64,000 bases of DNA from Nitratiruptor tergarcus DSM 16512 (GTDB lineage: Bacteria; Campylobacterota; Campylobacteria; Campylobacterales; Nitratiruptoraceae): contig NZ_AP026671.1 in the NCBI RefSeq assembly GCF_027946175.1, positions 682,001-746,000 of the forward strand. The letters are read 5' to 3'. Under the pieces are notes generated by a model. The model worked only from the letters and a program-made list of their open reading frames with translations, was not told where the DNA came from and made no database searches. Both the position numbers and the translations under genes were made by a program. Positions within the stretch are counted from its first letter, which is position 1. Every line of letters begins with the position of its first letter. This document shows positions 41,387 through 47,026 of this stretch, in pieces.

Positions 41387-42169
41387 CTAAAATCTCCTTG
41401 AGCAATCCCGTTTGATGGTAATAAGTTCTTTTATATATTTACGTAAAGCTTCTATCCGGTGTTCGTCAGATGGATGGGTAGAGAGAAACTCTGGGACTTT
41501 TTTCCTGCTTTGCTGCATCATTTTATACCAAAACTTTATTGCTTCATAGGGGTTATAGCAAGCCTTATACATAAGATAAAGTCCAAGTTTATCAGCTTCA
41601 TATTCAAATTTTCTACTATATGGGTAGAGAACACCATACTGTGCCGTTACACCATAGGCAAGATCAAAAAGTGGTCCCCATCCTCTCTCATTAATATTCA
41701 AGCCTTGTGCTAAGAGTTTCTTTCCAACTTCACCAATCATAGCCATAGATACTCTCTCACTGCCATGACGCAGTATTGCATGTGCTACTTCATGGCCTAT
41801 AACAGCTGCTAGTTGATCTGGATTATCAATAAGCTTTAAAAGTCCAGTATAGACAAATATCTTCCCACCAGGAAGACAAAAAGCATTTACTTGTGGAGAC
41901 TCTAATACATAAAACTCCCATCTATATCCTGGATGAAATTCCTCATCCGCAACTTTAGCAATACGCGTTGCAACCTCTTTGACAAGACGATTGTAATAGG
42001 GGTTGTGAGAAACTTTTGCTCTTTGAAGTATCTGCTGCTTGGCATTCAGACCTATCTGGATCTCTTGCTGTGGAGATATGAGAATGAGTTGTGATCTATG
42101 TATATAGGGGTTTTTAGTACAAGCTACAAACAAAAGAAGTACTGTAATAAGTGCAAAAAATTTTTTCAC
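41387..42169 (-). CDS. M48-family metalloprotease, predicted lipoprotein
   Basis: A zinc metallopeptidase of the BepA/LoiP type, likely for outer-membrane quality control. GHEVAHAILRHGSE carries HExxH, and EYEADKLGLY the third ligand. The open frame starts at a TTG (42196), but the GTG at 42169 has AAAGGA six bases upstream and gives a lipoprotein signal peptide (MKKFFALITVLLLFVAC), so I use it (260 residues). The ribosome-binding site lies inside a perfect hairpin that also ends the feo operon. No TPR domain is present. Confidence 0.88.
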   Translation of the reverse strand: MKKFFALITVLLLFVACTKNPYIHRSQLILISPQQEIQIGLNAKQQILQRAKVSHNPYYNRLVKEVATRIAKVADEEFHPGYRWEFYVLESPQVNAFCLPGGKIFVYTGLLKLIDNPDQLAAVIGHEVAHAILRHGSERVSMAMIGEVGKKLLAQGLNINERGWGPLFDLAYGVTAQYGVLYPYSRKFEYEADKLGLYLMYKACYNPYEAIKFWYKMMQQSRKKVPEFLSTHPSDEHRIEALRKYIKELITIKRDCSRRF

Positions 42170-42193
42170 AGAAAATCCTTTAAGGATTTTCTG
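42169..42193 (-). terminator. Perfect 12-bp hairpin after feoB overlapping the M48 peptidase start
   Basis: CAGAAAATCCTT and AAGGATTTTCTG form a perfect 25-base inverted repeat with a one-base centre, 16 bases after the feoB stop. On the minus strand it is followed by GAAAAAATTTTTT. It looks like a terminator or processing hairpin for the porin-feoAB transcript, yet it contains the AAAGGA ribosome-binding site and touches the GTG start of the next gene, so it may also restrain that gene's translation. Confidence 0.7.
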
Positions 42194-42208
42194 CAATTAT
42201 ACTATATG

Positions 42209-44305
42209 TTAATACCCAAGGAGTGCTAAAATATTATAAACTCCAAATGCCATAAGCCAAGCCAAAACATTTGGATAGATGGTATAAAAAGTTCTCCATG
42301 CCCATTGTGGTATCTCTGCGTAAAATGTACTCATAGCAGCGACACAAGGACTATAGATCATTATAATAATAATGAGAGCGATAGCTGCTTTGAAATCCAC
42401 ATTTTGACGAAGTTTTGTAATGAGTGTAGAGCTCTTCTCATCTGCCTCACCAACTGCGTATAGTGTTGCAAGCGTGGATACAACTACCTCTTTAGCAGCA
42501 AGCCCACTAATAACAGCCACACTCATTCTCCAATCAAAACCTAGTGGAGCAAATATTGGCTCAATGGCCTTTCCAAACTCTCCAAGATAGCTATTTTCTA
42601 GATTTTTTGCTGCCAACTCATTTTGTAATTGAGTTTTTTCCTGCTCGCTCTTTGCAAGTTCAATCTTTTGCTCATAAGTTGTCACTAGCTTTTCATTTAC
42701 CGGATAACTGCTTAAAAACCAGATAATCATCGCAGCTCCTGCAATGAAAGTCCCAGCTTTTTTCACAAAAAGCTTTGTTTTAATCCAAAGCTCCATTGCC
42801 AGTGCTTTCATTGATGGAAAACGATATGGTGGCATCTCCATGACAAATGGCTCAGGCTCACCTTTAAAAAGGACAATGCGGAGAATTTTTGCAACAATAA
42901 GACCCAAAATAGCTCCGCCTATATAAATAGCAAAGAGTACATTACCTGCACTGTGTGTTGGAAAAAAAGCTGCTATCAAAAGCACATACACAGGTAGTCT
43001 TGCACTACAGTTCATAAATCCAAGTACGAGCATAGTAATAAGTCGATCTTTTGGGTTTTTAAGAGTTCTTGCTGCCATATAGGCTGGAACAGTACAACCA
43101 AAGCCACTTACAAGTGGTATAAAGGCTTTTCCTTGTAGACCAAACTTCTTTAAAAAGCCATCAAGTAAAAATGCAGCTCTCGACATATATCCTGTCTGCT
43201 CAAGCAAATTAATCCCCAAAAACAGAATCAAAATATTTGGCAAAAACATAATAATCGCACCAACAGCTGGAATTACACCATCAGTAATGACAGAATTAAA
43301 ATCTCCTGGAGGAAGTATTCCTTTGAGCCAATCAGCAAAATTTGTAACTGTCTCATCTATATAATCCATTGGAATAGAACCAACTTCAAAGGTAAGTTGA
43401 AAGAGAGCCCACATAAAAAACAAAAATATCGGTAAACCAAAAATTGGATGAATTAAAATTTTATCGATTTTATCTGTAAGAGACTCTTTGCGAGGCGCTT
43501 GCATGACCTGCATTACAATAGATTTTGCAATAGAGTTTCTCTCATTTGCTATGATGTCAGCTACACTCTCCTCATCAAATTCTAGTTGCAAACGATGCAT
43601 ACTTTTGCCTAGTGCTTCATGAAACTCTAAAAATATTGGTAGATCATGCACCTCTTTATAGACATCCTCATCTTTTTCAAAAAGACGAATAACATAAAAT
43701 CTCGCGCGATCTTCATCTGTAAAATGGGGAGATTTCAGTAGAATTTTTTGCAATGATGTGATCTCATCTTCTATTTTTTCATTATAGAAGATTTTTCTTC
43801 GCTCTTTTGGAGTATTATATTCATCAATAACCAAATCTATAATATCATCTATTCCCCTTTTCTCTTTTGCAGAAGCCAAAACTACAGGACGACCGATTAA
43901 TTCAGAAAGTTTTACTGCATCAATCATGCCACCTTGCTTCTCAACTTCATCAATCATATTAACAACAAGTATCATCTTCGGATTCATATCAAGAAGTTGC
44001 AAAGTGAGTATAAGATTTCTTTGCAATACATTCGCATCAACTACATTAATAATAAGATCGTAATCTTCATATAATAGATAGTTTTTTGTTACCTGCTCTT
44101 CAGGAGTATAAGCATTGAGTGAGTAGATTCCTGGAAGATCCACTATATTTATATCATACTCCCCTTTTTGGAGTCTCACCTCTTTCTTTTCTACTGTTAC
44201 TCCAGCAAAATTCCCAACGTGCAATCTTGCATTGCTCATAGCATTTATAATGGAGGATTTTCCTACATTGGGCTGCCCTACCATTGCAACTTTTATCTGT
44301 TTCAT
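42209..44305 (-). CDS. feoB: Ferrous iron transport protein B
   Basis: The inner-membrane Fe(II) permease. It has an N-terminal G domain with G1 GQPNVGKS (residues 10-17), G3 DLPGIYSL, and G4 NMIDE, then a helical GDI-like linker to about residue 275. Around eight TMs follow, including two Gate-motif regions (for example SGFGCTVPAYMAARTL and GLAAKEVVVSTLATLY). At 698 residues it is a little shorter than E. coli FeoB and lacks the cysteine tail. It overlaps feoA by four bases, in a Fur-box-linked operon. Confidence 0.97.
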   Translation of the reverse strand: MKQIKVAMVGQPNVGKSSIINAMSNARLHVGNFAGVTVEKKEVRLQKGEYDINIVDLPGIYSLNAYTPEEQVTKNYLLYEDYDLIINVVDANVLQRNLILTLQLLDMNPKMILVVNMIDEVEKQGGMIDAVKLSELIGRPVVLASAKEKRGIDDIIDLVIDEYNTPKERRKIFYNEKIEDEITSLQKILLKSPHFTDEDRARFYVIRLFEKDEDVYKEVHDLPIFLEFHEALGKSMHRLQLEFDEESVADIIANERNSIAKSIVMQVMQAPRKESLTDKIDKILIHPIFGLPIFLFFMWALFQLTFEVGSIPMDYIDETVTNFADWLKGILPPGDFNSVITDGVIPAVGAIIMFLPNILILFLGINLLEQTGYMSRAAFLLDGFLKKFGLQGKAFIPLVSGFGCTVPAYMAARTLKNPKDRLITMLVLGFMNCSARLPVYVLLIAAFFPTHSAGNVLFAIYIGGAILGLIVAKILRIVLFKGEPEPFVMEMPPYRFPSMKALAMELWIKTKLFVKKAGTFIAGAAMIIWFLSSYPVNEKLVTTYEQKIELAKSEQEKTQLQNELAAKNLENSYLGEFGKAIEPIFAPLGFDWRMSVAVISGLAAKEVVVSTLATLYAVGEADEKSSTLITKLRQNVDFKAAIALIIIIMIYSPCVAAMSTFYAEIPQWAWRTFYTIYPNVLAWLMAFGVYNILALLGY

Positions 44306-44523
44306 TGCTCCACCTCAATAGCTTGTGCTTCTTCTTTACGCAATGCTACACGTGTACCTTCCACATCAACTTCCCATGTCTGTTTCTGTAAGGTATGATC
44401 GAGTAGTTTTATTTTATTGCCTTTTGCAATTCCCATAGATACCAACCTTGCTTTAATAACATCATCAGCTTTTATCTTTTTAATGATTGCTTCATCACCT
44501 ATTTTCATATCAGTTAATTTCAT
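44302..44523 (-). CDS. feoA: Ferrous iron transport protein A
   Basis: A 73-residue SH3-like cytoplasmic partner of FeoB. MKLTDMKIGDEAIIKKI, then RLVSMGIAKGNKIKLLD and GTRVALRKEEAQAIEVE follow the FeoA pattern. GGAGTGTTGT precedes the ATG. It begins 9 bases after the porin gene and ends in an ATGA overlap with feoB, so all three are almost certainly one transcript. Confidence 0.95.
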   Translation of the reverse strand: MKLTDMKIGDEAIIKKIKADDVIKARLVSMGIAKGNKIKLLDHTLQKQTWEVDVEGTRVALRKEEAQAIEVEQ

Positions 44524-44532
44524 ACAACACTC

Positions 44533-45678
44533 CTAAAAACTTTTTTTCACTATTATGCGAAATATATCTCTGTCTTCCCCATTTGGTAATTTATCATCAA
44601 TAGAAGCATAAACAATTTCACTCTCTACTCCAAAAATTTGCATAGTAGCATAGAGATCAATTTCATCTGTATCAAATTGCGATTTCTTTTTTGCTCGAAA
44701 ATTTCCATACATTACACCAAAATCAATGCTCTCATTATAACTATATGAAGCACCTAGTACAAAACTTCGTGCTTTTTTAGCATCTACAGCATCAATAGTG
44801 AAATCTTCCATGGAAGTAAAAAATGGTCCTCCTCCAAAACTTGACATACTAGGTGTATTACCAAATTCTTTATTTGCTGCTAATTGCAATGATATATTTT
44901 GATACGTTGTTTCTAAAAAGATACCAAAAGTTTTAGAATCTAAATTTCCTATTAAACCATCACCTGTATCAGTTGCTCTATCAAACTGTATTGATGCAAG
45001 AAGTGAAAATTTGTTCCAGATAAAAGTATGTGACAACTCCCCATACAAAACATTGGCTATCTGATCAATATGATAATACCAAAGGAAAGCTCCGTTATTC
45101 TCATCTTCATACCCTATACCGGTAAAAAACATTCCATCAATTTTTTTATTTATTCCAAATACTTCACTAAGACGAACAAATTTTTTTATATCACCTCCAT
45201 TTTCCCATCCTGCCATTTTGGTAACATATCCAGCTTCAATATTTACATTATCCCAACTCTTTTGATAATGTACTCCTTCAAAATAGTTTGGAACCATTCT
45301 AATATCATCACTATCAGCATGGGGTGTATCTATACTCATACGCCCTACTTGTAACATATTAGTTGCATCACTATATTTAATATATGATTGCCCCAAAAAA
45401 GCAAAACCTCCATCGTATAAGCCAAAGAAATCGCTATTACTCCCTTGTATTGGAGCCACAGCATAAATCATAGCACCAATTTGTAATCCATTAAATGATG
45501 GTGTATCAAAATGTATATGTCCACCAATCGCAGCTGCACTTTTGTCACCGTCTATATACCCCACTCGCAATTCACTTTGCATGTGTCGCTCTTCATCAGA
45601 TGCACCAAGTTGCTCACGCAAAGACTCTTGTGCCATAGCCATGACACAAATTATGCTAAAAGTTACTACTTTTTTCAT
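44533..45678 (-). CDS. Outer-membrane beta-barrel porin, first gene of the feo operon
   Basis: A 381-residue protein with a signal peptide (MKKVVTFSIICVMAMA), many alternating strands rich in aromatic residues and glycine, and a C-terminal phenylalanine (IIVKKSF), all typical of outer-membrane barrels; the length fits OprD/Campylobacter-type porins. AAAAAGGACTGAA precedes the ATG. It is 9 bases upstream of feoA and shares the Fur-box promoter. Entry of Fe(II) across the outer membrane is a reasonable inference, not shown. It could also be a general porin under iron control. Confidence 0.8.
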   Translation of the reverse strand: MKKVVTFSIICVMAMAQESLREQLGASDEERHMQSELRVGYIDGDKSAAAIGGHIHFDTPSFNGLQIGAMIYAVAPIQGSNSDFFGLYDGGFAFLGQSYIKYSDATNMLQVGRMSIDTPHADSDDIRMVPNYFEGVHYQKSWDNVNIEAGYVTKMAGWENGGDIKKFVRLSEVFGINKKIDGMFFTGIGYEDENNGAFLWYYHIDQIANVLYGELSHTFIWNKFSLLASIQFDRATDTGDGLIGNLDSKTFGIFLETTYQNISLQLAANKEFGNTPSMSSFGGGPFFTSMEDFTIDAVDAKKARSFVLGASYSYNESIDFGVMYGNFRAKKKSQFDTDEIDLYATMQIFGVESEIVYASIDDKLPNGEDRDIFRIIVKKSF

Positions 45679-45748
45679 TTCAGTCCTTTTTCTCTTTTAT
45701 TCATGCACGAAATAATAGAAAAATATTGCTTACAGGTAACTTAATTAT

Positions 45749-45767
45749 GATAATCGTTATCGTTATT
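45749..45767 (-). promoter_or_regulatory. Fur box upstream of porin-feoA-feoB
   Basis: On the minus strand AATAACGATAACGATTATC matches the classic 19-base Fur consensus at 15 of 19 positions by my count. About 9 bases downstream, TTACCT and TATTAT with a 16-base spacer (45739-45712) could be the promoter, though this pairing is weak. The site lies in the 205-base gap before the porin gene, the longest non-coding stretch in the window; the rest of that gap is AT-rich with nothing else recognised. Confidence 0.75.
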
Positions 45768-45883: not shown

Positions 45884-46174
45884 CTATGTTTGTTCTATTT
45901 GATTGTAATATGCCATTAACTTAGCGCGCACATCAGCTATCATTTGAGGCGTTGCTTGAGGAGACTCGAGCCATACTGCTTGGAAATTCTCTTTTGACGT
46001 TGTATAGACACACTCATTCAAAAATGCACTATACTCCTCTATCGTTTTGCAATAGCGCTCTTCACCAGTTTCTGTATTGACACAGCGAATCATCCAACTA
46101 CCAAGTCCGTTAGGTACGATTTCAGCCTCAACTATTAAAATATCCTCTTTTGGAATATTGTTTTCACTCTCCAT
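45884..46174 (-). CDS. Small hypothetical protein following psd (96 residues)
   Basis: An acidic 96-residue protein: residues 12-50 look like paired beta strands (ILIVEAEIVPNGLGSWMIR, then a turn with TGEERYCKT) and the C-terminus has helices (TPQMIADVRAKLMAYYN). Two or three cysteines are spread without a metal motif. The ATG lies in the psd 3' end, overlapping by 11 bases. No family is recognised; coupling to psd is likely from the overlap. Confidence 0.7.
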   Translation of the reverse strand: MESENNIPKEDILIVEAEIVPNGLGSWMIRCVNTETGEERYCKTIEEYSAFLNECVYTTSKENFQAVWLESPQATPQMIADVRAKLMAYYNQIEQT

Positions 46175-46970
46175 ATTTAACCTTTGCTATTTGTTGTCCA
46201 AATTTTACTGTAGTATTTGATTGTACCACAAGCTCACAAAAATCTTTCTCAAAAAAGAGCAATACCGTCGATCCCATTTTAAAATATCCTAAAAGTTCTC
46301 CCTTTTGTAACCAAAGATCTTTATACTCATATATTGCAATCTCTTTTGCTCTATTTGTCTCTATGCGACTCTCAAATACTAGCGTCATCTGTCCAACATT
46401 TAAAGCACCTACTAAAACAATAAAGAGAGTCTTTCCCTCTTTAGTTTCACATTCTAGTATTACACGCTCATTTTCTATAAAGAGATTAAGTTTTTTACGC
46501 AGGTAGCGCAAGTTTACTGGATAGAGTTTTCCTGGTACATGTACAACCCGTTTTATTTGTAGCGTATATGGCATATGGTAGCGATGATAATCACGGGGAG
46601 AAAGGTAGCAGTTGACATACTCTCCATTATATACACGCGAAGCATCACACTCTATTAAAAGCTCATCGATACTATACTGCATTCCCTTTATTTGCAGTGC
46701 CCTATTTTGTTCTAATATCCCTGCATGCGTTATCAAAGAGTCTGTTGGAGCTATGATGCCTTCTTCTATATCTCTTCTTTTTTGCAATGCTCTAGTAAAG
46801 AGCGCATTGAGACTCTCATACTCTTTTGGATCTCTAAACTCCTCCATATCGAGCTTGAGGAGTTTAACATAAGAAGTATTAATAAACTTTTGTAATAATG
46901 GATGAAATCTGTGGCTAGCAAATTTTCCAAATCCACGGGAAACTATATTTGACAGTACCCTCTTTTTCAA
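46164..46970 (-). CDS. psd: Phosphatidylserine decarboxylase proenzyme
   Basis: Makes phosphatidylethanolamine; self-cleaves to form a pyruvoyl group. The cleavage motif appears as KMGSTVLLF near the C-terminus (the family's LGST with M for L). SPRDYHRYHMPY is the conserved histidine region, and YESLNALFTRAL is near the N-terminus. The frame is open to 47009, but TTG at 46970 has AAAAGGA five bases upstream and gives a typical start (268 residues). It is divergent from gltX. Confidence 0.92.
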   Translation of the reverse strand: MKKRVLSNIVSRGFGKFASHRFHPLLQKFINTSYVKLLKLDMEEFRDPKEYESLNALFTRALQKRRDIEEGIIAPTDSLITHAGILEQNRALQIKGMQYSIDELLIECDASRVYNGEYVNCYLSPRDYHRYHMPYTLQIKRVVHVPGKLYPVNLRYLRKKLNLFIENERVILECETKEGKTLFIVLVGALNVGQMTLVFESRIETNRAKEIAIYEYKDLWLQKGELLGYFKMGSTVLLFFEKDFCELVVQSNTTVKFGQQIAKVKYGE

Positions 46971-47026
46971 TCTTTTCCTTTTAACAAAATTTATATTACA
47001 ATTGCACAAACCAAAAAAGGATAAAG

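Follow-up and report, generated by a model that had tools for sequence, protein, structure and literature searches.

An OprD/Occ-type porin linked to feoAB in Campylobacterota: a candidate iron-controlled route for ferrous iron across the outer membrane

The porin-feoA-feoB locus and its Fur-box-like site

We analysed 64,000 nucleotides of the Nitratiruptor tergarcus DSM 16512 genome (contig NZ_AP026671.1, positions 682,001 to 746,000; hereafter the window, in whose coordinates positions are given), in which a gene for an OprD/Occ-type outer-membrane porin stands directly before the ferrous-iron transport genes feoA and feoB. The porin gene (44533..45678, minus strand) encodes 381 amino acids from an ATG start with a signal-peptide-like N-terminus, and is the first gene of the proposed operon; it is followed on the same strand by feoA (44302..44523, minus strand; FeoA PF04023, E 3.3e-20) and feoB (42209..44305, minus strand; TIGR00437, 608.9 bits). 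Profile matches show that both FeoA and a full-length FeoB with GTPase and gate domains are present. As the first-pass annotation of this DNA had reported, and as the open reading frame (ORF) coordinates confirm, the porin stop lies 9 nt before the feoA start; feoA and feoB overlap by 4 nt. That annotation also described the porin as fused into the operon: it does adjoin feoA, but it is a separate gene and there is no fusion. The three genes are probably co-transcribed.

Upstream of the porin lies a Fur-box-like array of two overlapping 19-bp registers (45743..45767, minus strand). All Fur boxes were scored against the 19-bp consensus GATAATGATAATCATTATC. The 15/19 match previously noted at 45749-45767 is present, and a register 6 nt away, 45743-45761, scores higher, at 16/19; it occupies -83 to -65 from the porin ATG (65-83 nt upstream). 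This is the sole 16/19 site in the 64-kb window, compared with a mean of 0.07 in shuffled sequence. The host genome (1.94 Mb) carries two FUR-family genes, the stronger match lying at C1:435055-435414, and none of its four TonB-receptor Plug matches is preceded by a Fur-box match above 12/19 in the stretch scanned.

Linkage with feo and Fur-box-like sites among relatives

Conservation of this arrangement was examined at two scales. Among 298 genomes of the class, a set found by similarity to the window porin, 44 porin matches at E <= 1e-20 occur in 39 genomes. A cross-check of FeoB positions shows 27 of the 44 to be neighbours of feoB in the same orientation, and tblastn added a 28th (G209:C89); in the window's own family (f1), the best porin match is feo-linked in 8/8 genomes of this set. 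Profile A2, run over 397 genomes, found 123 with a match at E <= 1e-30, many of these being to other Opr porins. The 50 matches that score 247 bits or more and come from genomes for which a FeoB was listed were cross-checked, with a single FeoB position taken per genome. Of these, 31 are feo-linked: 30 lie within 2 kb of feoB and one (G209) was counted by hand. None of these 30 is on the strand opposite feoB; 23 lie 5′ of feoB and 7 lie 3′ of it. By family group, the linked fractions are 8/11 in f1, 7/11 in f4, 14/22 in f8, 1/4 in f11 and 1/2 in f13. All 7 linked porins of f4 follow feoB-feoA, and those of the other groups precede feoA-feoB. How far the porin-feoA-feoB order extends to other genomes had been left for checking by the first-pass annotation; linkage proves to be conserved, in two orders and, among the cross-checked matches, always on the feoB strand.

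A second collection was assembled locus by locus. A scan of genome contigs with the window porin as the only query gave 13 pattern stretches and no relatives; the named relatives came from a scan with alignment A1 and the patterns PH[AML]DSDDI and S[FL]GGGP[FY]FT. The resulting 53 named loci come from Nitratiruptor, Sulfurovum, Hydrogenimonas and other Campylobacterota, with five from outside that phylum. Thirty-three are feo-linked, 12 as porin-feoA-feoB and 21 as feoB-feoA-porin. For the five outside Campylobacterota (L094, L113, L114, L118, L119), the stretch read shows no feo match. In one of them, a Paraglaciecola metagenome-assembled genome (MAG; L113:3824-8792), the porin relative is convergent with an ABC transporter and a solute-binding protein (Pfam ABC_tran, TOBE_2, SBP_bac_8), which we take to resemble an iron(III) importer.

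Fur-box-like sites accompany many of these genes, both within and outside feo operons. With 410-nt upstream windows, sites of at least 15/19 precede the porin in 10/10 assessable porin-first loci. They also precede 12/14 assessable Campylobacterota loci without visible feo, although three of those 14 are cut by contig ends (L073, L109, L112) and two have little upstream sequence (L079, L083); of the remaining nine, seven have such a site, L106 scoring 13 and L117 scoring 12. The boxed loci without feo include three from Hydrogenimonas (L088, L090, L093), and inspection of the neighbouring genes at the Hydrogenimonas-group loci L012 and L014 showed that they are not feo. In the feoB-feoA-porin class, 7/21 reach 15/19 before the porin; before feoB, scanned in 16 of the 21, 4/16 reach at least 15 and 16/16 at least 14. 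A narrower 200-nt scan found sites of at least 15/19 in 12/18 porin-first, 1/6 feoB-feoA-porin and 3/6 unlinked loci (L012 16, L014 15, L026 17), the six unlinked porins being counted without the host genome's own two paralogues. Outside Campylobacterota, L119 has a 15/19 site and the other four score 11-13. Several rows in these counts are near copies, for example L014/L090, L013/L091, L020/L115 and L080/L102, and the p value of a Fisher test on them is accordingly not to be read literally.

Two comparisons give these figures a baseline. In simulated windows (n=500), 0.4% reach 15/19 and 2.6% reach 14. Among the paralogue controls, 0/22 reach 15/19: the host genome's own two score 11/19 each, and the 20 extra controls, hand-picked from lower-ranked or unlinked rows of the 397-genome profile search, score at most 14, a value reached by four of them (scan length 200 nt for L002 and L003, 410 nt for the other controls). 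We consider it very probable that the porin is under iron control.

Fold, phylogeny, pore interior and loops

The window porin matches Pfam OprD (PF03573) at E 1.4e-15, with 57.7 bits against a curated cut-off of 25, and in profile comparison it also matches the solved Occ channels. The Pfam search returned no OprB match, and the NCBIfam Opr subfamily cut-off was not reached (opr_porin_1, 42 bits vs 100). An AlphaFold2 model built from 46 aligned sequences (predicted local distance difference test 91, predicted template-modelling score 0.87) has 18 strands and long loops at 115-131 and 272-303. In structural comparison it comes closest to OccD3 (Z 38.4; 340 residues, 2.1 A) and to OccK1/OpdK (Z 37.0), and the top 24 VIA-align rows are all OprD-type porins (Occ, Opd and one BenF-like; Z 32.1-38.4). 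The Campylobacter jejuni porin MOMP ranks lower, at Z 28.9. By its predicted fold, then, the window porin is a member of OprD/Occ. It resembles channels such as OccD3, OccK1 and OccD2 in this fold, in its 18 strands and in having long conserved loops at the loop 3 and loop 7 positions; it differs from them in sequence (14-20% identity in the OprD/Occ rows) and in its acidic interior, a property measured against paralogues only.

In a tree of 96 porins, made with a 'quick' method and rooted on L003 by choice, a single clade of 76 rows (Shimodaira-Hasegawa-like approximate likelihood ratio test, SH-aLRT, 99) contains all 53 feo-linked porins and is separate from two paralogue clades and from the outgroup L003. 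Several of the named relatives with the closest porins in this tree are Nitratiruptor or unclassified Campylobacterales MAGs. Two controls, L178 and L179, fall inside this clade, with interior charges of -8 and -10; L180 (interior -5) falls outside it. By Pfam, the neighbours of L178 (256-4200) include ferritin, imelysin-family, DUF2325 and FUR-family genes, and L179 is adjoined by a similar ferritin-like and imelysin-like ORF identified by eye; the window's genus thereby has another porin neighbourhood with an iron theme. Downstream of the paralogous porins L002 and L161-L177 there is often a DUF485 protein together with an SSF symporter (by Pfam for L002 only, the others by eye), which suggests that pairing of a porin with its inner-membrane transporter may be common in this class.

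The OprD/Occ family is known for a ladder of basic residues in the channel interior, for anionic substrates. In the window porin the interior net charge is -9, and the basic ladder of the OprD/Occ carboxylate channels is absent; that ladder marks anion channels and not the Pfam family. To compare groups, the interior was defined as the more polar face of each model strand, set by hydropathy without coordinates, and for 16/18 strands the same inward face is obtained whether linked porins or controls are used. Mean interior net charge is -8.8 in linked porins (n=53), -7.2 in unlinked porins with a Fur box (n=12) and +2.4 in paralogues (n=22), and -6.6 in the nine other rows; L032, whose start is mis-set, was excluded from the tree and charge counts. 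Specifically, linked porins carry fewer inward basic residues than controls (6.4 vs 13.3), more inward acids (15.1 vs 10.9) and more inward histidines (2.6 vs 0.7). The outward face does not show this trend: its mean charge is +1.1 in linked porins, +0.6 in unlinked porins with a box and -2.9 in paralogues.

Conserved acidic residues also occur in three loops. Loop 3, the predicted constriction loop between strands 5 and 6, carries TPHADSDDIRMVPNYF at residues 118-133 (45280..45327, minus strand; alignments A1-A3 and group counts). Loop 4 carries MAGWENG at residues 155-161, including Glu159 (45196..45216, minus strand; alignment and group counts), and loop 7, between strands 13 and 14, carries SFGGGPFFTSMEDFTIDA at residues 280-297, including Glu291, Asp292 and Asp296 (44788..44841, minus strand; alignment and group counts). 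The loci L104 and L117 and truncated loci are not in alignment A3. In linked porins, position 122 is Asp in 51/53, 159 is Glu/Asp in 51/53, 291 is Glu/Asp in 52/53 and 296 is Asp/Glu in 51/53, whereas Asp122 and Glu291 each occur in 2/22 controls; in the named loci this conservation is partly by construction, because the loci were found with those patterns. In addition, a histidine pair on strand 2 (HxH, residues 54-56; 45511..45519, minus strand; group counts) has H54 in 40/53 linked porins and 4/22 controls, and H56 in 43/53 and 5/22. An acidic barrel interior combined with conserved acidic loops suits a cation channel. By analogy with MOMP, loops 3, 4 and 7 may form a metal-binding cage; that such a cage confers metal selectivity is a tentative proposal, to which we give slightly less than an even chance.

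Proposed ferrous-iron entry, its alternatives and known systems

Feo moves Fe(II) across the inner membrane. We propose that porin-feoA-feoB is one Fur-repressed ferrous-iron operon. When cellular iron falls, Fur would leave the box before the porin, and the porin, FeoA and FeoB would then be made together, as their spacing suggests. The acidic OprD/Occ-fold barrel would pass Fe(II), and probably other small cations, passively across the outer membrane, and we propose that its narrowest point is lined by conserved Asp/Glu on loops 3, 4 and 7, plus His in one subclade. FeoB, together with FeoA, would then carry Fe(II) over the inner membrane. The iron control and the pairing with Feo that the first-pass annotation had proposed draw support from the conserved linkage, from the Fur-box-like sites outside the operon and from the acidic interior. 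We put the probability that the porin has a dedicated role in Fe(II) entry at roughly 0.68. Fe(II) as the actual substrate, Fur binding and channel selectivity are predictions.

A number of observations weigh against this proposal. At 16/19 or better, the whole genome has 6 Fur-box matches (5 distinct places), against 3 for a reversed control pattern. Because such sites are not rare genome-wide, the box alone is not decisive, and we rejected it as proof on its own; its position and conservation are what make this predicted site convincing. Six porin-first loci fall below 15/19 in the 200-nt scan (L006 13, L011 9, L021 14, L022 14, L029 11, L032 10), among which the start of L032 is mis-set and L006 has a near relative, L072, with 17/19 in the longer window; three unlinked loci lack a box in the same scan (L016 10, L023 9, L024 10). 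For 19 of the 50 cross-checked porins, no listed feoB lies within 2 kb. As for charge, the loops (mean -14.9 linked, -16.8 unlinked with a box, -9.9 paralogues) and the whole protein (-24.2 linked vs -12.3 paralogues) suggest that the interior difference is partly general acidity, and this difference is largely one clade-level shift and thus amounts to about one evolutionary event. Individual rows depart from the pattern: the linked porin L022 has an interior net charge of 0, and the controls L178, L179 and L180 are acidic. L178 and L179 count against a strict 'only feo' rule, although they would fit an iron-related clade. Controls, too, often have the loop-3 Asp pair 124/125 (14/22 and 15/22). 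The histidines are absent from the f8 linked porins examined, and we rejected them as a defining feature. Finally, the constriction of C. jejuni MOMP holds Ca2+ through Asp120, Gln152, Asp155 and Glu288 of loops 3, 4 and 6, and the channel, cation-selective in KCl, is switched by Ca2+ to anion selectivity (PMC5090048). An acidic constriction therefore need not pass divalent metal freely.

The strongest alternative is that the protein is a general small-cation porin, induced when iron is limiting and passing Fe(II) no more readily than Mn, Ni, Cu, Ca or Mg, which helps Feo only by raising outer-membrane permeability. It overlaps with a dedicated Fe(II) role and differs on selectivity only. Porins are mostly weakly selective, and MOMP, a fold relative, behaves in KCl and binds Ca2+ as just described; FupA of Francisella appears to carry Cu besides Fe(II) (PMC4905997). 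However, linkage and the Fur-box-like sites tie the window porin and its relatives to iron, and 51 to 52 of the 53 linked rows have an acidic residue at each of positions 122, 159, 291 and 296. We give this alternative a substantial chance, below even. It is unlikely that the substrate is an anionic iron chelate or an organic acid, much as carboxylates are carried by other OprD/Occ channels, and that Feo takes up iron set free in the periplasm. The names of many solved OprD/Occ members refer to acids, amino acids or aromatics, and paralogues of the same class adjoin the DUF485/SSF pair, but the interior of linked porins is acidic where that of paralogues is basic on average, with about half the inward basic residues (values above). 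That the neighbourhood is inherited chance without function is very improbable and was rejected on the conserved linkage: gene order within one family could simply be old, but five family groups show the association, in either of two orders and with porin and feoB sharing a strand, and Fur-box-like sites precede many porins outside the operon, which together largely refute this reading.

The idea of an outer-membrane protein working with Feo is not new, since FeoP and FupA are known. The Acidithiobacillus feoPABC cluster, reported in 2008 (PMC2631029, PMC2621215), has a porin gene before feoABC with a Fur box upstream; FeoP was proposed for Fe(II) entry and called a member of the OprB family, and A. 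caldus has a FeoP-type porin apart from feo yet with a predicted Fur box. The view that Feo usually has no dedicated outer-membrane gene, expressed in the first-pass annotation, is thus fair, but feoP shows that it is not absolute. The window porin resembles FeoP in adjoining feoA behind one Fur box, with Fur control in the window suggested by the site only. It differs in assigned family, FeoP being OprB by description and the window porin Pfam OprD (PF03573) with no OprB match, and in that the Campylobacterota porins also occur as feoB-feoA-porin. FupA is likewise an outer-membrane Fe(II) protein used with FeoB (PMC4905997); it is reported to differ in mediating high-affinity uptake and in being a predicted barrel with a periplasmic plug domain, not an open porin. 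With MOMP the window porin shares an 18-stranded fold, and MOMP's acidic constriction does bind a divalent ion; the two are 12% identical, and MOMP is a general porin that is anion-selective with Ca2+.

Among the open-access papers listed, none links feo with a Campylobacterota porin in its title or the opening of its abstract, which is not proof of absence, and the main texts of two Feo-evolution papers contain no word beginning 'porin'. What appears to be new, in that it was not found in the literature examined, is an OprD-type lineage spread in Campylobacterota with a changing operon position and an interior charge difference. We tentatively suggest, at somewhat under even odds, that a Campylobacterota Fe(II) porin evolved by charge inversion of an OprD/Occ anion channel, that the Asp/Glu(/His) cage of loops 3, 4 and 7 is its divalent-metal selectivity site, and that the gene enters and leaves feo operons, often keeping its Fur box. 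If so, its origin would be separate from that of OprB-type FeoP, and Feo would have gained outer-membrane partners more than once. An iron-controlled porin with Feo across Campylobacterota, if real, would imply that the passage of Fe(II) through the outer membrane can be both dedicated and regulated. Exact residues for mutation are provided by the loop motifs, and the paralogues outside feo operons are natural comparison channels.

Several minor features surround the locus. A terminator-like hairpin 3′ of feoB (42166..42196, minus strand; 14 pairs and then a T-rich tail, from a consensus scan only) overlaps the probable GTG start (42169) of the next gene, which encodes an M48 protease with a lipoprotein-like signal; the overlap indicates that the listed TTG start of this gene at 42196 is likely wrong. 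The host genome has a second feoA-feoB pair (L149:3227-5588), with a FeoB ~33% identical to the first; the stretch read there holds no porin, and its best upstream Fur match is 14/19. Upstream of the window porin, a 96-aa ORF without a Pfam match (45884-46174) ends 205 nt before the porin; it is kept there in many relatives from the window's family, adjoining a relative of ORF 46164-47009. Elsewhere in the genome (L155:1501-2584; C1:1179423-1182441), Fur-box-like sites of 16/19 and 15/19 precede an outer-membrane-like protein (Pfam Phenol_MetA_deg), and the next gene appears by eye to encode a periplasmic-binding-protein-like product, a 146-aa fragment of which has no Pfam match; these two genes are possibly another iron-controlled pair.

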